Assembly: GCF_001748285.1 (NCBI RefSeq)
Contig: NZ_BDGT01000004.1
Location: forward strand, 62,001-126,000
Source: Thermogemmatispora onikobensis
Lineage (GTDB): Bacteria; Chloroflexota; Ktedonobacteria; Ktedonobacterales; Ktedonobacteraceae
Length of the DNA: 64,000 nt
Direction of reading: 5' to 3'
Position numbers and translations under genes: made by a program
The notes under the pieces: model-generated
Seen by the model: the letters and a program-made list of their open reading frames with translations, nothing else
The model's database searches: none
Told to the model about the DNA's origin: nothing
In this document: piece by piece, positions 3,313 to 28,610 of the stretch
How the letters are laid out: every line of letters starts with the position of its first letter
Position numbering within the stretch: the stretch's first letter is position 1

Positions 3313-4491
3313 GTGCAGCTATCACGCCTTGTTCAGAGTCTCCCCCCCTATCATTTTGCTGAAACCCAGAAGAAGCTGGCCGCCCGCCAGGCGGCAGGGG
3401 TTGATGTGATCAATCTGTCGATGGGCGATCCTGATTTGCCTGCCCCCACCCCTGTCATTGAACGGCTCTGCCAGGCGGCCCACGATCCAGAGAACCATCG
3501 CTATCCCGAGTATCGCGGCCTGCGCGCCCTCCATGAGGCCTTCGTCTCCTGGTTCCAGCGGCGCTTCGGCGTGACACTGACACCGGAAGAGGAAACTCTG
3601 CCGCTCCTGGGATCAAAAGAGGGTTTAGCCTATGTGGCGATGGCAGTGCTTAACCCAGGCGATGTGGCCCTCGTGCCCGATCCCAACTACACCGTTTATG
3701 TGACGGGCACGACCAGTACTGGCGCTCACCCCTATTTGCTGTCGCTGCGCGAAAGCCATGATTATCTGCCCGACCTGGACAGCATTCCTTCCTCGGTGCT
3801 GCAACAGGCCCGCCTCCTTTGGCTGAACTATCCAAACAACCCAACTGCCGCCTGCGCCGACCGCGCTTTTTTTGAGCGCGCAGTCGCTTTCGCTCGTCGA
3901 CACGACCTGTTGATCGTGCACGACATGGCCTACGCCGAAGTGTATTTCGAACAGCGCCCCCCGAGCATTCTGGAGATTCCAGGGGCGCGCGAGGTGGCCG
4001 TTGAGCTGCACTCGCTCAGTAAGACCTACAATATGGCTGGCTTCCGCGCCGGCTGGCTCGTTGGCAACCGCGAGGTTGTGGACGCTGTGGGACGGCTCAA
4101 GAGTAATGTCGATAGCGGGATGTTCCGCCCAATCCAGTATGCAGCCATCGCGGCTTTGCAGTTGCCCGATTCCTGGATACAGGAGCGAAACGCTGTCTAC
4201 CGCCGCCGCCGTGATTTGCTTGTGGCAGGCTGCAATTCCTTGGGGCTGCGCACGCGCCAGACGCAGGCTGGCCTCTACGTCTGGGCTGCGGTGCCCGCAG
4301 GCTCAGGCTTTAAGGCTCGCGATTTTGCCAGCTGGCTCTTCGATCAGACCGGTGTGCTGCTGACCCCCGGGTCAAACTTCGGCGCCGCCGGTGAGGGCTA
4401 TCTGCGCATCTCAATGACCGCTCCCGAGGAGCGCATCGAGACCGCGCTGCAGCGAATGAGGGCCGCTCTGCGCGAGCTACCACGCTCCTAA
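3313..4491 (+). CDS. PLP-dependent class I/II aminotransferase, LL-diaminopimelate aminotransferase-like
   Basis: Fold-type I aminotransferase of about 392 aa. The PLP lysine lies in SLSKTYNMAGFRAGW, preceded by the LNYPNNPT loop and DMAYAE, the pattern seen in LL-diaminopimelate and alanine/aspartate-type transaminases; the substrate cannot be fixed from sequence alone. I start at GTG 3313, because GGAGAG ends six bases upstream; a TTG at 3277 opens the same frame but has no ribosome-binding site. The gene follows polA by 91 bases on the same strand and may be co-transcribed with it. No terminator is obvious in the 270 bases downstream. Confidence 0.88.
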   Translation: MQLSRLVQSLPPYHFAETQKKLAARQAAGVDVINLSMGDPDLPAPTPVIERLCQAAHDPENHRYPEYRGLRALHEAFVSWFQRRFGVTLTPEEETLPLLGSKEGLAYVAMAVLNPGDVALVPDPNYTVYVTGTTSTGAHPYLLSLRESHDYLPDLDSIPSSVLQQARLLWLNYPNNPTAACADRAFFERAVAFARRHDLLIVHDMAYAEVYFEQRPPSILEIPGAREVAVELHSLSKTYNMAGFRAGWLVGNREVVDAVGRLKSNVDSGMFRPIQYAAIAALQLPDSWIQERNAVYRRRRDLLVAGCNSLGLRTRQTQAGLYVWAAVPAGSGFKARDFASWLFDQTGVLLTPGSNFGAAGEGYLRISMTAPEERIETALQRMRAALRELPRS

Positions 4492-12314: not shown

Positions 12315-13307
12315 ATGATACAGACACTCCCACTGGTGCTTTCAATTGTCATGAGCGAGCTGGCCATCGGCTCGTTCCTGTTGCTCTATGTGCTGGACTG
12401 GCGTAGTGAGGTGCGGCGCAGCTTCCTTCTCTTTTTCTCTATCATCTATCTCCTCTTTACCGCTCTCACCTATCTTTTCCAGCAGAGCTTCGCCTCTCAA
12501 CCATTGCTGGACAGTTTTGTGCGACTCGATAAGCAGTGGACTGGCTATACCGGCCCGGCGCTTCTGGCCTTTTTGCTATTGCAGCTTCCCTATTTGCTCT
12601 TCCTGATTCTGGACCGGCGGGCCGGCGTCGATGGGAAAGAGAAAGCTGCGCAGGCCGGAGCCGCAGGGCAATTTTCTGTGGTACGTCTCCTACGACTGCT
12701 CAGCGGCGGCCTGGCTTCAGTGGCAGGCTTGTTTATGCTCTTGGTTCTGGGCATGATTTACCGTCCGCTGGCGCCCTCTCCGCTCGGGGAAGCCCTGGCT
12801 GTCCTGAGCTTCTTTATCGCGGCCCTGGCCGTCGGTGGCGTGATGACCTCGATGTGGCTCGGCCACTGGTATCTTGTCACACCGGCCCTGAGCGAGCGTC
12901 CACTCCTGTTCAGCACGGCAGTGGTCCTGATCGCCATAGTGCTCCAGATTATCCTGACGCTGGTCAGTTCTACTGTGGCTGGCCCTGCGGCCTCGACCGC
13001 CGTTACTCACTCAGCTCAGGCCACAGCGACAGCTATTGCTACCTCGGTGCCCACGCCAGTCGCCTCAAGTACAGCTACCGCTGTCAAGCCAGCTGGCGCC
13101 CCGACGGTCAGTCCCTTGAGCATGGACGTCCTTGGCTGGCTGCGCATTCTGCTTGGCTTCGCCTTCCCTCTCGTGCTGGGGGCCCTCACCTGGAAGCTGG
13201 CACGCGAGCGCTCTTTCCAATCGGCCACGGGCATGCTCTATCTGATCGTTGTCATGACGCTGGCAGGCGAGGTTTTGGCCCGTGGTATGTTCCTGAGCAC
13301 GCTCTAA
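12315..13307 (+). CDS. Polytopic membrane protein of unknown function
   Basis: 330 aa with roughly seven to eight hydrophobic segments (for example about 5-27, 38-56, 75-97, 118-145, 158-180, 195-215, 265-285, 305-327). A Thr/Ala/Pro-rich, probably exposed stretch lies at about 220-260, between the last two groups. I do not recognise a family: there are no transporter signature motifs, no nucleotide-binding loop and no conserved charged residues within membranes that suggest a mechanism. The start ATG has AAAAGGA upstream, and a good promoter precedes it. It appears to be a single-gene unit, with a G+C-rich hairpin downstream. Confidence 0.75.
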   Translation: MIQTLPLVLSIVMSELAIGSFLLLYVLDWRSEVRRSFLLFFSIIYLLFTALTYLFQQSFASQPLLDSFVRLDKQWTGYTGPALLAFLLLQLPYLLFLILDRRAGVDGKEKAAQAGAAGQFSVVRLLRLLSGGLASVAGLFMLLVLGMIYRPLAPSPLGEALAVLSFFIAALAVGGVMTSMWLGHWYLVTPALSERPLLFSTAVVLIAIVLQIILTLVSSTVAGPAASTAVTHSAQATATAIATSVPTPVASSTATAVKPAGAPTVSPLSMDVLGWLRILLGFAFPLVLGALTWKLARERSFQSATGMLYLIVVMTLAGEVLARGMFLSTL

Positions 13308-13612: not shown

Positions 13613-15232
13613 TTAGAGCGCCTGCTGTTCGGCGGCACGGCGCGCGCGCTCGCGCTCCTTCAGCTCGCGACGGAGGATCTTCCCAGAAGCGACTTTGGGG
13701 ATAGCGTCGATGAACTCCACAAAGCCCAGGCGCTTGTAGCCAGCCAGGCGTCCATTGACAAAGGCGATCAGCTCATCGGGCGTCACGCTCTGACCTGGAC
13801 GCAGGACGACAAAGCCTTTAGGCACCTCACCGGCCTCGGGATCGGGCACGGGGATCACCGCCGCATCCACGACCGCGGGATGCTCTAGCAACAGGGCCTC
13901 GATTTCTGCAGGGGCAATGCCAAAGCCCTTGTACTTGATCATCTCCTTCTTACGATCAACAATGTAGGTGTAGCCGTCCTCGTCGACATGGCCGATGTCA
14001 CCCGTATAGAGCCAGCCATCGCGCAGGGTCTGAGCCGTCTCCTCGGGCGCCTTCCAGTAGCCCTTCATCACCTGGGGGCCACGGATGATGATCTCTCCAT
14101 CCTCGCCCACCGGCAGCTCGCGCGTGCCGGTCTCGAGGTCGACAATCTTCTGCTCAGTATTGTGTACGGGCAGGCCGACGCTCTCCAGCCGCACCAGGGC
14201 TGGATCTTTCGGCTGAGCATGAGTGAGCGGCGAGGCTTCGGTCAGACCATAGCCCTGGACAACCTGAATGCCAGTCTTTTCCTGGACTTTGCGGGCTGGC
14301 TCCGGCGCCAGCGGGGCCGCTCCAGAGAAGATGTATTTGACGCTCTTGAGCTTGCCCAGGTCAATGGGAGCATTTGCCAAGGCCAGGATAATCGGGGGAA
14401 CTGCGAAGTAGTAGGTCACATTGTATTTCTCACATAGCTCAAGAGACTGGAGCATATCGAAGCGCTCCATGACAATCTGCGTCGCCCCACAGGCCAGGAA
14501 ACCGCCGGTCAGCATGACACCATAGATGTGGTAGAAAGGTAGGAAGAGCAGAGCTACATCGGTGAAGGTCGTTTGAAGCGCCGTGGTGAACTGCAGATTA
14601 TTGGAGACCAGATTGCGGTGGGTGAGCATCGTTCCTTTGGGCAGGCCAGTCGTGCCCGAGGAATAGGGGAGCGCCAGCAGATCATCGGGATCGATCGGAA
14701 CCGCCGGCGGCGCCTTCGGCGAGGACTCGCGCAGCAGGCGCCCAAAGGGGATCGCCTGGGGCAGGCCCTCGGGTACGTGGCTGCCGGTGACAATGATATG
14801 CTTCAGATTGGGCAGCGACTTCTGCCCCAGCACTGCCTGTAGCAGCGGTAGTAGCTCGCGCTGCACCAGGATGGCGCTGGCCTCCGAGTTCTCTAGCTGA
14901 TAGGCAATCTCGCGCTCTTTGTAGGAGGGATTCATCGGAGTGACAACCAGACCAATGGAGGCCGCGGCAATGAAGGTAATGGTGTACTCCGGTCGATTGA
15001 GGGTAAATATGCAGAGCCGCTCGCCTTTGCGCAGCCCCAGATTGTACAGCCCGTTGGCAATGCAGTTCACCATCGAGACAACCTCTCGATAGGTCAGGCT
15101 GAGGTCATGGTAAATGATGGCCCGCCCATCGGGATTACGCTCCGCCGCTCTGCGCAGCAGGTGATCATAGGGAACTTCCGGGAACTCGACGGGAGGCCTG
15201 AACAGCTCGGGAGCAAACATTTTCTCTGGCAT
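13613..15232 (-). CDS. AMP-forming acyl-CoA ligase (4-coumarate-CoA ligase/long-chain acyl-CoA synthetase group)
   Basis: 539-aa ANL-superfamily enzyme that activates a carboxylic acid to an acyl-AMP and then an acyl-CoA. Motifs in order: P-loop YSSGTTGLPKGTMLTH (about 185-200), GYGLTEASP, YTGDIGHVDEDGYTYIVDRKKEMIKYKG, and the C-terminal catalytic lysine in PKVASGKILRREL. Length and order are normal for the family. GAAAGGA precedes the ATG. The gene is divergent from the GxGYxYP-mftF unit across about 400 bases. With the thiolase and dehydrogenases at 29-32.5 kb it could activate acids made by the local alcohol dehydrogenases; this is inference from context, and the acid is unknown. Confidence 0.92.
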   Translation of the reverse strand: MPEKMFAPELFRPPVEFPEVPYDHLLRRAAERNPDGRAIIYHDLSLTYREVVSMVNCIANGLYNLGLRKGERLCIFTLNRPEYTITFIAAASIGLVVTPMNPSYKEREIAYQLENSEASAILVQRELLPLLQAVLGQKSLPNLKHIIVTGSHVPEGLPQAIPFGRLLRESSPKAPPAVPIDPDDLLALPYSSGTTGLPKGTMLTHRNLVSNNLQFTTALQTTFTDVALLFLPFYHIYGVMLTGGFLACGATQIVMERFDMLQSLELCEKYNVTYYFAVPPIILALANAPIDLGKLKSVKYIFSGAAPLAPEPARKVQEKTGIQVVQGYGLTEASPLTHAQPKDPALVRLESVGLPVHNTEQKIVDLETGTRELPVGEDGEIIIRGPQVMKGYWKAPEETAQTLRDGWLYTGDIGHVDEDGYTYIVDRKKEMIKYKGFGIAPAEIEALLLEHPAVVDAAVIPVPDPEAGEVPKGFVVLRPGQSVTPDELIAFVNGRLAGYKRLGFVEFIDAIPKVASGKILRRELKERERARRAAEQQAL

Positions 15233-15484
15233 GCTTCAATCCTTTCTCGACCCGGCCCTGGGTCTCAACAGCAATGCAGAATGTAGATGCCCTTGCACGT
15301 AGTAACAGCAGGAGGAAAAAGCTACCGAGTGTTGAGGCGACGCGGTAGCCAGGTTCTGCTCAGCTTCGCTGCTTTCGCAGGCTTGTATAGTAGCATACTC
15401 CAGAGATGTGAGCTGGTCAATACAGCATTCATTCTGGCTTCAGACATTTCGAATCGTCCCCAGGCGAGGATGAGCTTCCTTCCC

Positions 15485-15513
15485 TTGACGAAGGCTGCTT
15501 GATACCCTATAAT
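15485..15513 (+). promoter_or_regulatory. Strong sigma-70-like promoter for the GxGYxYP-mftF unit
   Basis: TTGACG (15485-15490), a 17-base spacer and perfect TATAAT (15508-15513). Transcription would begin near 15521, inside the longest open frame, which argues that translation starts further downstream at ATG 15641. Confidence 0.75.
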
Positions 15514-15640: not shown

Positions 15641-17272
15641 ATGGATGCCGAGCGGGGCGCGGCGTCGTCCTCTCTTGACTGGCCAGCAACTGCTTTTTTT
15701 CCACACTGGCAAGTGCCTCAAAACCTGGTCGTGGCCGATTTGCGCGATGCTTCCTTCGCGATCAAGCTGGCCGCCAGTACGCTGGCTGGCCTGGTCAATG
15801 TGCCACAGCCACAGCTCTATCTGGCAACCTATGAGGATGATCTTTTCTGGCTGCAAGCCGCCATCGCTCCTTGGCCTGTGCTGCTGGAGAGGCTGGAAGG
15901 GCAGGGGGAGATCCTGCTCAGGGAGCTGATCGCTCGCTTTCAGACACGCATTGCTGGCTTCATCGTCTACGACCCGCGACGCCCGGCCAGCGTGAATGTG
16001 GCGACCACCCTGGCCGGTATCCAGAGAGGGGTGGTGGCAGCCCCTGAGCTGCTGCCGCTGCTGCAACAAGCAGCAGGAGAGAAGCCAGTGTTGCTGGATC
16101 TGCGCCTCTCACACTGGCCGAGTGAGTACCTGGCTTATCGCTGGGCCAGCGCGGCCAGCGCGCGCCAGAGGTCGCGGAGATCGCTGGCTGGCATGAACCC
16201 GGCAATTGCCAGCGGCCTGCGCTCGTTTCTGGTGGCTACGCGCACCTTTGTCCACTGGCTCGATTCGCGCCTCTGGCAACCCTTTACAGGCCAGCAGCGC
16301 CAGCTGCTGGAGGAGTTGTTAGCCGAGCTTCTCCCCGGCAGCGTCCACCTGGGCTGGTTTCCAGACGAGGGAAGTGGGGTCACACTGGCCTCGGAGCGGA
16401 CCGTGGCGGTCCTGGCTAGCGACCACTGCAGCAACCTGGAGGTCTGGAACGCGCTGCAACCCCCAGAGCTGATTAACCACCTCCAGGCTCTGGCCCAGCG
16501 CTATCGTCGTCAGCAGGACGAGCGCCCTCTGCCAGCTCTGGAGCCACGTGTCTATCTTTCTTTAACGATCAGTGATGGCGATAACCTGCAATACACGCAA
16601 CACCGTCTGCTGCATCTGTGGCGCGATCCGGCCCGCGGCAGGCTGCCGCTCGGTTGGACAATCGCCCCTGCACTCTTGGAGGCCGCTCCCGCTCTGGCCG
16701 CCTATTATCTGGAGACGGCCAGCCCCCAGGACGAGTTGATCGCCGGCCCCAGCGGCGCTGCCTACATTTTTCCTTCGCGCTGGCCAGCCACTCAGCTTCC
16801 AGCCTTTCTGGAGCATAGCCAGCGCTTGCTGTCAGGGATGGGCCTCTCCCTGCTGCAGGTGCTCGACGGCGATTGGCGCCAGCAGCTGGGCCTCCCACTC
16901 CCGACCAGTATGCGTATGTCTAGCGCTGCGGGCCAGCGCGCCTTCATCGAGGCTCTTCAGCCTGCGGGGCTGCGCGGCCTGCTCACAGGCGCTGGCGGTC
17001 TGACGCTAAGCTATAAGAAAGTCAGGGGGCTGCCCGTCTATCACAATCTGGGCCTTGTCAGCAGCAGATCTCAGCTGGTGCAGCTTGTCAGAGGCCTGCA
17101 GGCCATCCATCGTCGGCGTCCGCTCTTCCTCCAGCTCTATGTACTGGCCTGGCGCCTGACGCCCACTGTCCTCTGGGAAGCGCTCCAGGACCTGGGTGAG
17201 ATTGTCTCTCCTGTGACCCCAGGTCAGCTGTTGCAGCTCATTGCCCAACAAGGAGAAGGTGCGGAGTCGTGA
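15641..17272 (+). CDS. GxGYxYP-family protein (putative glycoside hydrolase-like), coupled to mftF
   Basis: About 543 aa. The N-terminal part (NLVVADLRDASFAIKLAAST) and the central and C-terminal signatures YLSLTISDGDNLQY and GPSGAAYIFP match the GxGYxYP protein family, whose members are thought to be polysaccharide-active but lack a defined reaction. Here the name-giving motif is varied (GAAYIFP). I start at ATG 15641 with GAAAGGA upstream at a somewhat long spacing; the TTG at 15518 lies within the promoter region. No signal peptide is evident. The stop overlaps the GTG of mftF by four bases (GTGA), so the two are almost certainly translated together. This suggests, but does not show, action on the glycan that MftF attaches. 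Confidence 0.72.
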   Translation: MDAERGAASSSLDWPATAFFPHWQVPQNLVVADLRDASFAIKLAASTLAGLVNVPQPQLYLATYEDDLFWLQAAIAPWPVLLERLEGQGEILLRELIARFQTRIAGFIVYDPRRPASVNVATTLAGIQRGVVAAPELLPLLQQAAGEKPVLLDLRLSHWPSEYLAYRWASAASARQRSRRSLAGMNPAIASGLRSFLVATRTFVHWLDSRLWQPFTGQQRQLLEELLAELLPGSVHLGWFPDEGSGVTLASERTVAVLASDHCSNLEVWNALQPPELINHLQALAQRYRRQQDERPLPALEPRVYLSLTISDGDNLQYTQHRLLHLWRDPARGRLPLGWTIAPALLEAAPALAAYYLETASPQDELIAGPSGAAYIFPSRWPATQLPAFLEHSQRLLSGMGLSLLQVLDGDWRQQLGLPLPTSMRMSSAAGQRAFIEALQPAGLRGLLTGAGGLTLSYKKVRGLPVYHNLGLVSSRSQLVQLVRGLQAIHRRRPLFLQLYVLAWRLTPTVLWEALQDLGEIVSPVTPGQLLQLIAQQGEGAES

Positions 17273-18855
17273 CAAGCACGAAGAGCTACCGCTATCCGGC
17301 ACCGGGCTGTTATCGCCTGGCCCCGGGCCTGCGCCTGCTAGAGGGGACAGACGGTCAGTCCGGAGGGCTGGTTATCACTGCCTATCCATTGCGCGTCTTG
17401 CGCCTTGGTCAGCATGCCTGGCAATTGCTCAGCTTGTGCCGTCAAGAACGCAGCGGCGCAGAACTGGCCCGCCTGAGCGGACTCTCCAGCGAGCGGGTCT
17501 CTGCCCTTTGCCAGCAGCTCAGTGCCAGAGGATTACTGGAGGCCGGCCCACCGCCGCCACCGCGGTCGTGGCCAGGTGTCTCCGTGATCGTGCCTACCAG
17601 CAACCGCGCCAGCCAGCTTGCACGCTGCCTGCAGGCCATCCTTGGGCTGCGCTATCCTGCGCAGGCCCTGGAAGTCATCGTCGTCGACGACGCCTCACAC
17701 GATCAGACGTCGGCAGTGCTTGCCAGCCTCGGCCCAGCTTTCGCCAGTCGCGGGATGAGACTGCGTCTCCTACGCCATGCCCGGCGTCAGGGCGCCGCTG
17801 GTGCCCGCAATAGCGGCGCTGCCTCGGCCCGCTATGAGCTTCTGGCCTTCGTCGATGACGATTGCGTCGTGACGCCAGACTGGCTTACGACCCTGGTGCC
17901 ACTCTTCGCCGAGGCAAAGGTGGCCGCCGTCGGCGGTCAAATCCGCGCCTATGAAACCGGCAGTGCGTTGGGCCGCTATGAGGATGTTCGTTCTTCGCTC
18001 TTCATGGGCCTGCAGCCACAGGAGGTGCGCTTGAGCGGCCCGCTTACCTATCTTCCTACAGCTTGCTTGCTCGTGCGCCGCGAGATCTGGCAGGCCCTGG
18101 GAGGCTTTGCCCCCCTGACCTATGGCGAGGATGTTGATTTCTGCTATCGGCTGTTGGCCCAGGGCTGGCGCATCCGCTATTGGCCCGCTCCAGAGGGCAT
18201 GGTCTATCATGACTACCGTACGCGCCTCTGGACGTTCCTGGGGACGCGCGTGCACTATGCCTCTGCTGAGGCCGTGCTCCAACAGCTTCACCCACAGCAG
18301 CGCCGGGTTTTGCTGCTCCCGCCGCGCGAGGCGAGTTTTGCTGCTCTGACAGTCGGCAGTCTCTGGCGGCTCTTCAGTCCCGTGCTGGCGACCAGTCGGC
18401 GGCGCCAGCACAGGAATCTACACCGCACAAGCAAGGCGGGGCGCGCAAGCTTCTCGCTCTTGCTGGCACTGTTGGCACTGCTGCTGCCAGCTGCCAGCGT
18501 CTGGCAGCGCCGTCGGCGTCTCCACCTGGCTCAGGTGCCGCTGACAGCCTGGCAGCTCTGGCAGGCCACGCTGCGCAGCTACCTGGCCTACACCTATCAC
18601 CTGTGTCGCCATCTGACGCGCTACTACACGCTCGCGCTACTGGCAGCGAGTCTACTCTTTCCACCGCTGCTGGTGCTGGTTGGCCTGCTCCAGGCCATCG
18701 TAGTAAGCGTTGATTACGCCCGCCTGCGTCCGCGCCTGGGCCTGTTAGCGTTTGCCTGCTACTCTCTGTTAGAGGATTGCGCCTATGCCTTCGGCCTGCT
18801 GCTTGGCTGCTGGCGACAGCGCACCTGGCGGCCATTGCTAGCCGTGATACAATGA
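17269..18855 (+). CDS. mftF: Mycofactocin glycosyltransferase MftF
   Basis: 528 aa. A PqqD-like N-terminal domain (about 1-95, with PLRVLRLGQHAWQLLSLC and SGLSSERVSALCQQL) is fused to a GT-A family 2 glycosyltransferase beginning VSVIVPTSNRASQLARCL. The nucleotide-sugar residues VVDDASHD, FVDDDC (DxD, near 195) and EDVDFCYRL (near 286) are all present, followed by C-terminal hydrophobic segments that suggest membrane association. This two-domain arrangement is the hallmark of MftF, which in mycobacteria adds an oligo-glucose chain to premycofactocin. It starts with GTG overlapping the upstream stop. The rest of the mft set is split, with mftBC and mftA 2.5-5 kb downstream. Confidence 0.88.
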   Translation: MTSTKSYRYPAPGCYRLAPGLRLLEGTDGQSGGLVITAYPLRVLRLGQHAWQLLSLCRQERSGAELARLSGLSSERVSALCQQLSARGLLEAGPPPPPRSWPGVSVIVPTSNRASQLARCLQAILGLRYPAQALEVIVVDDASHDQTSAVLASLGPAFASRGMRLRLLRHARRQGAAGARNSGAASARYELLAFVDDDCVVTPDWLTTLVPLFAEAKVAAVGGQIRAYETGSALGRYEDVRSSLFMGLQPQEVRLSGPLTYLPTACLLVRREIWQALGGFAPLTYGEDVDFCYRLLAQGWRIRYWPAPEGMVYHDYRTRLWTFLGTRVHYASAEAVLQQLHPQQRRVLLLPPREASFAALTVGSLWRLFSPVLATSRRRQHRNLHRTSKAGRASFSLLLALLALLLPAASVWQRRRRLHLAQVPLTAWQLWQATLRSYLAYTYHLCRHLTRYYTLALLAASLLFPPLLVLVGLLQAIVVSVDYARLRPRLGLLAFACYSLLEDCAYAFGLLLGCWRQRTWRPLLAVIQ

Positions 18856-18969: not shown

Positions 18970-19791
18970 ATGGCGGGAACACTGCAACCTGAATGGGGTT
19001 TTATTGAGGCTCACGGCACCCAACTCTACTACGAGGTCGCCGGACGCGGCCACCCGCTCGTCCTGCTTCACAGCGGGTTGCTTGACCATCGCTCCTGGGA
19101 CCCGCAGTTCATGGAGTTTGCTCAGCACTACGAGGTCGTACGCTACGATCGGCGCGGCTTCGGTCGCTCGGCTATGGGCAACGTCGAGTACTCAGATGTC
19201 CGCGATCTTTACGACGTTCTCAACGATCTGGCCATTGATCACGCTTACCTGCTGGGTCTGTCGCTGGGCGGCAGGGTAGCCATCGATTTCGCTCTGACCT
19301 ATCCCGAGATGGTCGATGCTCTGATTCTGGCCGCCGCCAACATCAGCGGCTACGATAACTATACGCCGGAGACGCGCGAGCGTGGAGCGCGCATCGCTGC
19401 CGCCGCCCGGGCCGGGGACAGGGAACAGCTTTATGAGCTGTGGGCCAATGACCCGGCGATGCCCCAGGAGAACGAATATCCAGAAGCCGCTCAGCGCTAC
19501 CGCGAGCTGCTGCGCGACTACAGCTTTGTGCACTATCTGAATCCAGCACCCAGGCAGCCACTCAAGCCACCTGCCTTGCAGCGCCTGGCCGATATCCGCC
19601 AGCCGACGCTGATCCTGATCGGCGATGCCGACTCGCTGGAAACGCAAGCCCAGGCCGATCTCCTGGAAGCCGGTATCATCGATGCCAGGAAGGTGGTCAT
19701 CCACGGCGCCCGCCACATGCTCAACCTCGAACGCCCCGAGACCTTCAACCGTGCCGTGCTGACCTTTCTGCGCAGCCTCGAACGCCGCTAG
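18970..19791 (+). CDS. Alpha/beta-hydrolase fold protein
   Basis: 273 aa. It has the oxyanion region HSGLLDHRSWD, nucleophile elbow GLSLGG (Ser near 97), acid GDADSLE and catalytic His in HGARHMLNLERPE, so the Ser-Asp-His triad is complete. The cap is short. It resembles 3-oxoadipate enol-lactonase/carboxylesterase-type hydrolases, but the substrate cannot be named. AAAGGAGGTGA provides a strong ribosome-binding site about twelve bases upstream. It follows mftF by 114 bases on the same strand and converges on mftC. Confidence 0.9.
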   Translation: MAGTLQPEWGFIEAHGTQLYYEVAGRGHPLVLLHSGLLDHRSWDPQFMEFAQHYEVVRYDRRGFGRSAMGNVEYSDVRDLYDVLNDLAIDHAYLLGLSLGGRVAIDFALTYPEMVDALILAAANISGYDNYTPETRERGARIAAAARAGDREQLYELWANDPAMPQENEYPEAAQRYRELLRDYSFVHYLNPAPRQPLKPPALQRLADIRQPTLILIGDADSLETQAQADLLEAGIIDARKVVIHGARHMLNLERPETFNRAVLTFLRSLERR

Positions 19792-20018: not shown

Positions 20019-21242
20019 TTACGGGAGAGCGTACTCCGATCCGGCTGGCGACGAGCACGAGGCCTCTTGCAACACGAGCTGTATATGGCGAGGGACGTCA
20101 GCGAGCACGCACTCGGGGTCACGCACTCGCAAACTGCGCTGGACGAACCACTTGGTGGCTGGACAGCCACCATGACAAAGGTCGTAGCGCGAGCAACCGC
20201 CACAGGAGCCGGCTCCCATCTGGCGGTAGAAAGCAAAGACCGGCGAGTGCTGCCAGATCTCACGAAAGCTCTGTTCGTGTAAGTTACCAGCCTCGAATTC
20301 GGGCGTTTGGAAGAAGGCGCAGGGATAGACCTCGCCTTCAGGACAGATACAGCAGGTGGCGGTCGCCGCGCCGCACATGTCCAGGCCCGCCAGGCGCTCG
20401 CCAAAGGCATTCAGGTGGAAAAACGAGTCAGCAGTCAACACATCGGGATGCTCCCGCAGCCAGGCCACAAAGCCGCGATACTGCTCGCGTGTGGGATGTA
20501 GCTCTTCCCATACTGCGCGCCCGCGTCCAGAAGGGCGCAGACGTGTCACGCGCAGTTTGGCCCCAAAGCTGCTGGCGATCTCATAGAGGCGATCCAATTC
20601 GGGGAAACTATAGCGCGTCAGGACGCTATTGACGGTTAAGCTCAGGCCCTCGGCAGCCAGACGCTCCAGACCGCGCATGGCTCGTCGAAAGGCATCTTGC
20701 CCACGAATCCGATCATTGGTCTCAGGGGTGGCACCGTCCAGGCTGACCTGAAAATAAATCGGCTCCAGAGCAGCCAGGCGGCGAGCGCGCTCAGGCGTGA
20801 TCAGGGTGCCATTCGTGCTGACGCACATCACCAGGTCACGCTCACGGCAACGCTCCAACACACGCCAGATGCCCGGATACATGAACGGCTCGCCGCCTCC
20901 AAAGTGGATCTGGAAGACCTGCATCTCAGCCAGCTCATCGACCACTGCCAGGGCTTGCTCTGTCGTCAGCTCACGCCGACGGCGCTTCCCCGAGGATGAG
21001 AGGCAATGCACGCACGTCAGATTGCAGGCCGCCGTGATCTCCCAGGTTACCGTGATGGGCGCCGAGAGTCCTCCCTGCAGGAAACGCTGCGAGCCGCTGG
21101 TCTGTGTGAGTGAGGGCGGGCTGCCGGTCTCGGCAAAGGCAGCTTTGGCCAGAGGGTGAAGAGCACCAGGCTCAGGCCGCCCTTGGCCCCCGCTCCCGCT
21201 CCGCCCACGGTGACGCCCATGAAACTGTACGAATTGGGTCAT
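20019..21242 (-). CDS. mftC: Mycofactocin radical SAM maturase MftC
   Basis: 407 aa. The radical SAM cluster motif CNLTCVHC lies near residues 71-78, followed by GGGEPF and the SPASM-type auxiliary-cluster cysteines in the C-terminal third (CCICPEGEVYPC, CGGCSRYDLCHGGCPATKW and a final PEC). In the known pathway MftC oxidatively decarboxylates the C-terminal Tyr of MftA and then cross-links it to the adjacent Val. The start ATG has GAAGGAG upstream; the first 45 residues (Gly/Arg/Pro-rich) are not part of the conserved fold. It lies 106 bases downstream of mftB on the same strand, the usual B-C order. The extra N-terminus and a 20-residue tail are oddities. Confidence 0.9.
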   Translation of the reverse strand: MTQFVQFHGRHRGRSGSGGQGRPEPGALHPLAKAAFAETGSPPSLTQTSGSQRFLQGGLSAPITVTWEITAACNLTCVHCLSSSGKRRRRELTTEQALAVVDELAEMQVFQIHFGGGEPFMYPGIWRVLERCRERDLVMCVSTNGTLITPERARRLAALEPIYFQVSLDGATPETNDRIRGQDAFRRAMRGLERLAAEGLSLTVNSVLTRYSFPELDRLYEIASSFGAKLRVTRLRPSGRGRAVWEELHPTREQYRGFVAWLREHPDVLTADSFFHLNAFGERLAGLDMCGAATATCCICPEGEVYPCAFFQTPEFEAGNLHEQSFREIWQHSPVFAFYRQMGAGSCGGCSRYDLCHGGCPATKWFVQRSLRVRDPECVLADVPRHIQLVLQEASCSSPAGSEYALP

Positions 21243-21348: not shown

Positions 21349-21678
21349 CTATTGCGCCGCTGCCTCGCCAGGCGCCAGCTCAGCCACTGGCTCGGCCTCT
21401 AGATAGCCGCGTTTCAGCAGCTCAGCGAGTGCCGCAGAGAGGCGGGCTTTGGCTTCTGCCGAGAAGACTTGCTGTTCGATGGCCGCGCTGAGATCGCCTG
21501 CAAACTGCTCTCGTGCCAAGAGCAGTAGCTCTATCAGACGTGGAGAATTGATGAACGAGAGCGAGCCTCGATCAGCACAGCCATATTTATAGAGGATGCC
21601 GCCAAAGGCTTCACGCCGAATCTTGACCTCGGGTAGCAAACGATAGCGGGAGCCTGCCGAATGTGCAGTCATGGTCAT
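21349..21678 (-). CDS. mftB: Mycofactocin precursor chaperone MftB (PqqD-like RiPP recognition element)
   Basis: 109 aa. RYRLLPEVKIRREAFGGILYKYG followed by GSLSFINSPRLIELL and a helical C-terminal part matches the PqqD-like MftB pattern: a winged-helix peptide-binding module that delivers the MftA leader to MftC. The C-terminus (AEPVAELAPGEAAAQ) is acidic and Ala-rich. I start at ATG 21678, with GGAAGG and AGGAGG 6-10 bases upstream; a longer frame upstream to 21816 has no support and runs through a palindrome. Upstream gene of a probable mftB-mftC operon. Confidence 0.85.
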   Translation of the reverse strand: MTMTAHSAGSRYRLLPEVKIRREAFGGILYKYGCADRGSLSFINSPRLIELLLLAREQFAGDLSAAIEQQVFSAEAKARLSAALAELLKRGYLEAEPVAELAPGEAAAQ

Positions 21679-21779
21679 AGGAGTCCTTCCTCCTACCTGG
21701 TAGCCTGGTAGGTAGTCAGACAGATAGGCAGCCTGTCTATAGAACGATCTGGAAACCATTGGTTCCCTGCACGCCACCT

Positions 21780-21812
21780 CAAGTCCGCTCACACAGTACG
21801 CGAGCGGACTTG
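21780..21812. promoter_or_regulatory. 11-bp inverted repeat upstream of mftB (candidate operator)
   Basis: AAGTCCGCTC (21781-21790) and GAGCGGACTT (21802-21811), extended by one flanking C/G pair, surround 11 bases. It lies about 100 bp before the mftB start in the gap shared with the divergent penicillin-binding protein gene. No T tract follows on either strand, so a repressor site is more likely than a terminator. Mycofactocin clusters often carry a TetR-type regulator, but none is encoded here. Confidence 0.45.
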
Positions 21813-21945
21813 GCAAGTACCCTATACAGAGGAAGCATACTCAGAGATCTATCCCAGCGTCAAGGCCGCGGCTCCGAAGCGTTAGATACTCTAGGGGAGA
21901 GTGCAAGAGACCCCGTCCACGGCTCCCCTTTGTTAGCTAAAAGAC

Positions 21946-24051: not shown

Positions 24052-24243
24052 ATGGAATCCCTCTTTGAGCACGATTGGTCCTTCCCAGAGACAGAAGAGC
24101 AGCCTGCCTACAGCCAGACAGAGCCAGTGCTGCCCTCCTCGCTGGCAGATGAACAGGCCACAGGAGCCGAGGTCGGGGAGGAGTTTGAAGAGGAGCTGAT
24201 TATCGAGGACTTCACTATCGATGGCATCTGCGGAGTCTACTAG
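24052..24243 (+). CDS. mftA: Mycofactocin precursor peptide MftA
   Basis: 63-aa ribosomally made precursor. The C-terminus ends in TIDGICGVY; the GVY end is the hallmark of MftA, whose terminal Val-Tyr is modified by MftC and released as the redox cofactor core. The usual core is DGMCGVY; here Met is replaced by Ile. The leader is strongly acidic (EEFEEELIIED just before the core), as expected for recognition by MftB, but is about twice as long as the roughly 30-residue mycobacterial precursors. AAGGAG lies 11 bases before ATG. Its last 23 bases overlap the start of the SDR gene in another frame. Confidence 0.92.
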   Translation: MESLFEHDWSFPETEEQPAYSQTEPVLPSSLADEQATGAEVGEEFEEELIIEDFTIDGICGVY

Positions 24244-25087
24244 CCCGCCGGCTAGAGGGCGCTTTGCCGATCGCGTAGTCCTGATCACCGGTGCAGCGCG
24301 CGGCCAGGGTCGCGCGCATGCTCTGGCTTTTGCCCGCGAAGGGGCACGCCTGGTGATCTGCGATGCCTGCCGCCAATATCGCACCGTCCCTTATCCGCTG
24401 GCTCACCCCGAGGAACTGGCTACCGTGGCCAGGGAGATCGAAGCCCTGGGGCGCCCGGTGATCGCTGCTCAAGTGGATGTGACCAACCTCCCGGCTATGG
24501 AGGCCCTGGCCGAACGCGCGCGCCGCGAGCTGGGACCGATCGATGTGGTGGTAGCCAATGCCGGTCTCTACTCCTTCGCTTTAAGCTGGCAGATGACCGA
24601 AGAGCATTGGGACGAGACCGTCAATGTCGATCTCAAGGGGGTCTGGATTACCTGCAAGGTGGCCATTCCTCAGATGCTGGAGCGGCGTCAGGGGAAAATT
24701 ATCTGTATCGGCTCAACTGCCAGCTTTAAGGGAATGGATCACCTGGCTCACTATGTGGCCGCCAAGCATGGTGTCATCGGGCTGGTAAAGACGCTGGCAC
24801 GCGAGCTGGCTCCCTACAATATCAATGTCAATGCCGTCTGCCCCACCAGTGTGGCTACCTCCATGTGCCTCAACCAGGCACTCTATGACCTCTTCGCCGG
24901 CGGCCCCGGCCCTCAAGCTACGTACGAGCACATGGTCAGCCAGATGAACCAGATGAATCTCTTTAGCGATCGTAATCTGCTGCCACCCGAGGATGTCAGC
25001 GCCGCTGTACTCTGGCTAGCCTCCGATGAGGCACGCCACTTAACAGGCTGCGCCCTGCCCGTTGATGCCGGCTATCTGACTCGCTAG
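24221..25087 (+). CDS. Mycofactocin-coupled SDR-family oxidoreductase
   Basis: 288-aa Rossmann enzyme. The nucleotide loop TGAARGQGR (near 24), NAG (VVANAG) and catalytic Tyr-x3-Lys (YVAAK, Tyr near 177) are intact. An insertion after the second strand, CDACRQYRTVPYPLAHPEELATVAREIEALGRPV when read across about residues 45-80, is the feature that marks mycofactocin-associated SDRs, which hold their NAD(H) non-exchangeably and pass electrons to mycofactocin. It begins inside mftA, so the precursor and its presumed partner enzyme are translationally coupled. The likely substrate is a secondary alcohol, identity unknown. Confidence 0.9.
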   Translation: MASAESTSPPARGRFADRVVLITGAARGQGRAHALAFAREGARLVICDACRQYRTVPYPLAHPEELATVAREIEALGRPVIAAQVDVTNLPAMEALAERARRELGPIDVVVANAGLYSFALSWQMTEEHWDETVNVDLKGVWITCKVAIPQMLERRQGKIICIGSTASFKGMDHLAHYVAAKHGVIGLVKTLARELAPYNINVNAVCPTSVATSMCLNQALYDLFAGGPGPQATYEHMVSQMNQMNLFSDRNLLPPEDVSAAVLWLASDEARHLTGCALPVDAGYLTR

Positions 25088-27503: not shown

Positions 27504-28610
27504 ATGAAAACCAGAACCGCCGTCATCTACGAACCTGGTACCCCCATCCGCGTTGAAGAGATCGAACTTGACCCACCCAAAGAGCAGGAAGTGCTTGTCC
27601 GTATGGTAGCTGCAGGCGTCTGCCATTCCGATTACCACGTGGTCAAAGGTGACCTGCCAGCCTACTTGCCAATGGCGCTTGGGCATGAAGGGGCCGGCAT
27701 CATCGAGCAGGTCGGCCCTGGTGTCAGCGACCTGAAGCCGGGCGACCACGTACTCATGAGCTTCATCCCGGCCTGCGGCAGCTGTCCCTCCTGCGTCTCC
27801 GGCCACAGCAACCTCTGCGACAAAGGGGCGGGCACGCTGAACGGTCCTTTGCTGGACGGCACTTTCCGCATGCACGGCGAAAAAGGCGATATTGGCCAAT
27901 TTTGCTACATTGGCAGTTTCAGCGAATACACCGTCGTCCCTGCTATGTCGGTGGTCAAGATCGCTGACTACTATCCCCTGAGCCGAGCCGTGCTGGTGAG
28001 CTGCGGCGTCCCCACCGGCGTCGGCTCCGTCATCCACCGGGCCCGCGTTACGCCCGGCAGCACCGTTATGGTCATCGGCTGCGGCGGCATCGGCATGAAC
28101 ATCGTGCAGGGAGCAGCCATCGCCGGGGCGCGCATGATCATCGCGGTCGATATCCACGATTTCAAGCTGGAGAAAGCCAAAGAGTTCGGCGCCACCCACA
28201 CCATCAACTCCAGCCAGGAAGATCCCGTCAATAAGACCCTGGAACTGACCTGGGGCGTCGGCGTCGACTATGCCTTTGAAGCGATCGCCACACCGGAGAC
28301 CATCGCCCAGGCTTTCAATGCTACCGCCAAGAATGGGACCGTGGTGGTGGCCGGCCTCTCGCCCTTCCTGGCGCAGGCCATTCCCATCTCTCCGCTCAAC
28401 CTGGTCCTTTACCAGAAAACCCTCATGGGCACCCTCTTCGGCGATTCGCAGCCGCGCAACGACATTCCTCTGCTGCTGCGCATGTACGAGAGCGGTAAGA
28501 TCAAGCTCGATGAGCTGGTGACGCGAACCTACAAGCTGGATCAGATCAATGAGGCTTACGATGATCTACTCGCCGGGCGGAACATCCGGGGCGTGATCGA
28601 GTTCAGCTAG
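27504..28610 (+). CDS. NDMA-dependent-type zinc alcohol dehydrogenase (mycofactocin-associated)
   Basis: 368-aa zinc-dependent medium-chain dehydrogenase. Catalytic-zinc Cys in GVCHSDYH and the GHEGAG segment, structural-zinc cysteines CGSCPSCVSGHSNLC, and the NAD loop GCGGIGMNIVQGAAIAGA are all present. The overall sequence resembles the group of alcohol dehydrogenases that use tightly bound NAD(H) and need an artificial acceptor (NDMA) in vitro, known to co-occur with mycofactocin. Its place beside mftA, mftB, mftC and mftF supports that reading. It probably oxidises primary alcohols. ATG 27504 has AGAGGA upstream; the frame extends to 27411 without a ribosome-binding site. Confidence 0.87.
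   Translation: MKTRTAVIYEPGTPIRVEEIELDPPKEQEVLVRMVAAGVCHSDYHVVKGDLPAYLPMALGHEGAGIIEQVGPGVSDLKPGDHVLMSFIPACGSCPSCVSGHSNLCDKGAGTLNGPLLDGTFRMHGEKGDIGQFCYIGSFSEYTVVPAMSVVKIADYYPLSRAVLVSCGVPTGVGSVIHRARVTPGSTVMVIGCGGIGMNIVQGAAIAGARMIIAVDIHDFKLEKAKEFGATHTINSSQEDPVNKTLELTWGVGVDYAFEAIATPETIAQAFNATAKNGTVVVAGLSPFLAQAIPISPLNLVLYQKTLMGTLFGDSQPRNDIPLLLRMYESGKIKLDELVTRTYKLDQINEAYDDLLAGRNIRGVIEFS

Follow-up and report, generated by a model that had tools for sequence, protein, structure and literature searches.

A leaderless GxGYxYP gene overlapping mftF in Thermogemmatispora is most likely an older neighbour of the mycofactocin genes

In Thermogemmatispora onikobensis, a gene for a GxGYxYP protein lies immediately upstream of mftF, which encodes the mycofactocin glycosyltransferase. 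Close relatives devoid of mycofactocin (mft) genes carry this gene in the same place, so that it most probably represents an older neighbour and not a part dedicated to mycofactocin. The reading that we regard as probable is that it belongs to the old core of the family and specifies a cytosolic putative glycosidase, and that the mft genes took up their place beside it afterwards. The analysis concerns a stretch of 64,000 nucleotides, here called the window, from a genome of 5.56 Mb. The literature searched contains no mention of Thermogemmatispora and mycofactocin together.

The window holds a real mft locus, since mftA, mftB, mftC and mycofactocin-linked oxidoreductases are found in it besides mftF. 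The mftF gene (17269–18855, forward strand) encodes a GT2 glycosyltransferase scoring 373 bits against TIGR03965, for which the cut-off is 280. The radical SAM maturase gene mftC (20019–21242; TIGR03962, 425 bits) and mftB (21349–21816, start uncertain; TIGR03967, 72.9 bits) are on the reverse strand. They are followed on the forward strand by mftA (24052–24243), whose 63-residue precursor ends in IDGICGVY, by a mycofactocin-coupled SDR (24221–25087 as the longest reading frame, within which the true start may lie; TIGR03971, 338 bits) and by an NDMA-dependent, mycofactocin-linked alcohol dehydrogenase (27507–28610; TIGR03989, 500 bits). The mft loci of the family (G000, G050, G059, G108 and G236) hold mftA, mftB, mftC and mftF. 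In these five genomes no TIGR03964 match indicative of an MftE-like creatininase was detected, and no MftD scored above cut-off, the best candidate reaching 260 bits against 471; the MftD and MftE families are not universal (Haft 2011). Between mftF and mftC lies an alpha/beta hydrolase gene (18970–19791, forward strand), of which an intact homologue was seen only in Thermogemmatispora loci; it is a possible stand-in for a missing maturation step.

The GxGYxYP gene (15641–17272, forward strand; 543 codons) and mftF overlap by four bases in the motif GTGA (17269–17272), the TGA stop occupying 17270–17272 and the GTG start 17269–17271, as the first-pass annotation had described. Among 21 co-directional pairs in a rough gene set of the window, this is the only four-nucleotide stop/start overlap. 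The six genomes of the Thermogemmatispora-type genus all show this close junction: the overlap reads GTGA in five, four of which have an alternative TGATG start, and ATGA in the sixth. In G108, a member of a sibling genus whose GxGYxYP protein shares 43% identity with those of Thermogemmatispora, the gap is zero nucleotides, with a TTG start of mftF directly after the TAA stop. The overlap and the shared direction suggest coupling of the two genes, and in Thermogemmatispora and G108 their arrangement makes joint transcription and translation probable; the earlier description of the pair as translationally fused was an overstatement. In the MAG G124, the GxGYxYP gene has a one-base frame break (around position 4095 of locus L068), which is either an assembly error or a real loss.

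The single strong promoter that had been placed before the pair is borne out by a near-consensus, sigma-70-type sequence, TTGACG-17-TATAAT (15485–15513, forward strand), which matches 11 of 12 consensus positions. A scan of both strands returned two promoter-like sites against a shuffle mean of 0.3. On the side of the divergent acyl-CoA ligase gene lies a promoter, TTGACC-17-TATGCT (15392–15420, reverse strand), which most genera of the family have conserved, G124 and G293 with a single-base variation. The GxGYxYP-side promoter is shared by all six members of the genus and was not found in other genera; it is genus-specific.

The distribution of the gene within the family carries most of the argument. 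PF14323 is encoded in 26 of 29 family genomes, including all eight of high quality; the three genomes without it are fragmented assemblies. Two kinds of GxGYxYP protein occur, one secreted with an apparent signal sequence, the other leaderless and approximately 535 residues long. By contrast, mftF scores above cut-off in eight of the 29 genomes (the six of the genus, G108 and G236), and most of the family retains the GxGYxYP gene in the absence of MftF. In sixteen genomes that carry a leaderless GxGYxYP gene, mftF is missing and so is the NDMA-dependent alcohol dehydrogenase, whose family reportedly occurs in mft species alone; several of the sixteen (G272, G306 and G307) are assemblies of one or few contigs. 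In eleven of them (G022, G265, G272, G293 and G301–G307), among which Ktedonobacter, Dictyobacter, Ktedonosporobacter and Tengunoibacter are represented, the gene stands head-to-head with an acyl-CoA ligase of the type found in the window (AMP-binding; 13613–15232, reverse strand). Beyond the ligase these eleven genomes also share a membrane protein of 330 residues without a Pfam match (12315–13307, forward strand, in the window). In the other five (G172, G228, G258, G286 and G308) the ligase was not seen as a neighbour; in G258 the gene lies at a contig end. A conserved ligase neighbourhood by itself proves no function.

A further genome, G156, has the ligase, the GxGYxYP gene and then directly an NDMA-dependent alcohol dehydrogenase (locus L073, 2976–4082), with no mft genes detected. 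It was kept out of the mft-free count because of this dehydrogenase and because its assembly is 84% complete, so that mft genes may be unassembled.

Among the eight mft-positive family genomes, seven, from two genera, have mftF adjacent to the GxGYxYP gene. The exception is G236, in which the start of mftF is approximately 210 bp away from the ligase, the interval holds no GxGYxYP gene and the leaderless copy lies on another contig. The proposal that the gene is a new, dedicated component of the mycofactocin system can draw on this seven-out-of-eight adjacency, but fails elsewhere. PF14323 is absent from all 52 mft-positive Actinomycetota (the MftB carriers among 396 genomes) and from all seven mft-positive Chloroflexota sampled beyond the family; MftF therefore occurs without a GxGYxYP protein in most lineages. 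Conversely, none of 79 loci examined around GxGYxYP relatives contains mftF or mftC nearby, those of Thermogemmatispora excepted. GxGYxYP genes thus do not co-occur with mftC and mftF across lineages, and a universal mft gene is ruled out by these data. Since mft-positive genomes elsewhere have no counterpart, the mycofactocin glucan does not generally need the GxGYxYP gene. Conserved adjacency, which the first-pass annotation had made the test of its proposal, holds in the genus (6/6) and in G108 and breaks down beyond them. As the gene belongs to the family core, is linked to the ligase in eleven genomes where mft genes are missing, lies apart from mftF in G236 and is lacking in all mft-positive genomes sampled beyond the family, a dedicated and general mycofactocin role is unsupported and appears extremely improbable.

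The protein itself displays the features that define its family, namely N-terminal repeat domains, a C-terminal barrel domain, the Tyr and Pro of the motif and putative catalytic acids. All four Pfam profiles, PF16216, PF20957, PF20958 and PF14323, score above cut-off, the last with E = 5e-46. The name-giving motif at residues 372–378 reads GAAYIFP, in which G372, Y375 and P378 are retained; the equivalent in BT2193 is GSSYIFP. An AlphaFold2 model (mean pLDDT 92) has one strong full-length match in the PDB, 3SGG (BT2193), with E = 5e-31 and TM scores of 0.78/0.82. In the alignment the putative acids E272, D331 and D333 of BT2193 correspond to E243, D312 and D314, and N334 to N315. Across 30 aligned GxGYxYP proteins E243, D314 and N315 are invariant and position 312 is Asp or Glu; the proteins from mft-free genomes have the same triad residues, with D312 replaced by Glu in a few. 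No signal sequence is visible by eye, which points to a cytosolic location.

The GxGYxYP family has no demonstrated reaction (PMC4071793), in agreement with the first-pass annotation, and no glycoside hydrolase activity has been reported for it in the literature searched. This leaves room for a non-catalytic part beside MftF, in glycan binding or scaffolding, whose assembly could be aided if the two proteins are translated jointly. Such a role is nevertheless very unlikely: three putative catalytic acids are kept, three of the four site residues do not vary in the 30 proteins, and MftF occurs elsewhere without this partner. Hydrolase chemistry is suggested instead by analogy with BT2193. The triad proposed for the family superposes on that of a GH9 cellulase, an arrangement for which activity is putative (PMC4071793). 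By extension of the proposal for BT2193, D312 or D314 would activate water and E243 would act as proton donor.

A predicted cytosolic glycosidase site of this kind would suit a glucan substrate, and the glucose chain of mycofactocin is beta-1,4-linked and degradable by cellulase (PMC7491314). The mycofactocin glucan is therefore a chemically reasonable substrate, although beyond the operon the case for it is one of plausibility. An alternative reading is recruitment: in Thermogemmatispora and G108 the old cytosolic protein, which would be expressed jointly with mftF, may have become an enzyme that trims the beta-1,4-glucose chain built by MftF or determines how long it grows. The intact E/D/D putative triad and the inter-domain fold resembling 3SGG are consistent with such an enzyme, as are the tight operon of two genera and the genus-specific promoter. 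The sixteen mft-free genomes retain the gene with the same putative catalytic residues, G236 has it apart from mftF, and mft-positive genomes elsewhere do without it. On balance we consider recruitment unlikely, though distinctly less so than a non-catalytic role.

Phylogeny bears on both readings. The leaderless proteins form one clade with 100/100 support (n = 24, one per genome). Within it, the mftF-adjacent proteins constitute no separate clade on the best tree: those of Thermogemmatispora group on a long stem branch and that of G108 is placed elsewhere with moderate support. A topology that unites the mftF-associated proteins in one group could not be rejected (p-AU 0.13), which counts against the gene being a mere neighbour. 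So do the tight mftF adjacency kept in two divergent genera and the combination of the long Thermogemmatispora stem with a strong promoter of its own, which would fit a change of role in that genus and lends recruitment some further weight. Spread by a mobile element was also considered and rejected: a plasmid search for GxGYxYP yielded only two distant matches, and vertical retention beside the ligase fits the distribution better.

The older-neighbour reading can be put as a sequence of events. An ancient GxGYxYP gene, family-wide in Ktedonobacteraceae-type bacteria, would have encoded a cytosolic putative glycoside hydrolase, with the divergent acyl-CoA ligase as its ancestral neighbour. Its basic job would be independent of mycofactocin, and we infer that an mft-independent substrate exists. 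The mft genes would then have arrived at the GxGYxYP/ligase spot in the lineage ancestral to Thermogemmatispora, G108 and G236, with mftF coming to rest directly downstream of the GxGYxYP gene in Thermogemmatispora and G108.

The locus carries a caution: operon adjacency is not equivalent to pathway membership, because here the same gene occupies the same position in genomes from which the pathway is missing. Were the GxGYxYP protein a recruited beta-1,4-glucanase after all, it would provide the family with its first known substrate and mycofactocin with its first glycan-trimming enzyme. For a family with an available structure, the small, leaderless, single-clade set, its ligase partner and a neighbouring glycosyltransferase with a chemically known product offer a practical route to testing the substrate.

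Two known systems provide the closest comparisons. BT2193 (3SGG) resembles the window protein in its four domain models, predicted fold, putative triad and accompanying Asn. It differs in that identity is approximately 21% over the fold alignment and in that the window protein has neither a signal sequence nor a PUL context, sits in an mft operon and bears the GAAYIFP form of the motif. With the mftABCDEF locus (Haft 2011) the window shares mftA, mftB, mftC and mftF, together with the TIGR03971 SDR and the TIGR03989 alcohol dehydrogenase. It departs from that locus in that no MftD above cut-off and no MftE-like creatininase was detected in the genome, and in that the alpha/beta hydrolase and the GxGYxYP gene are added.
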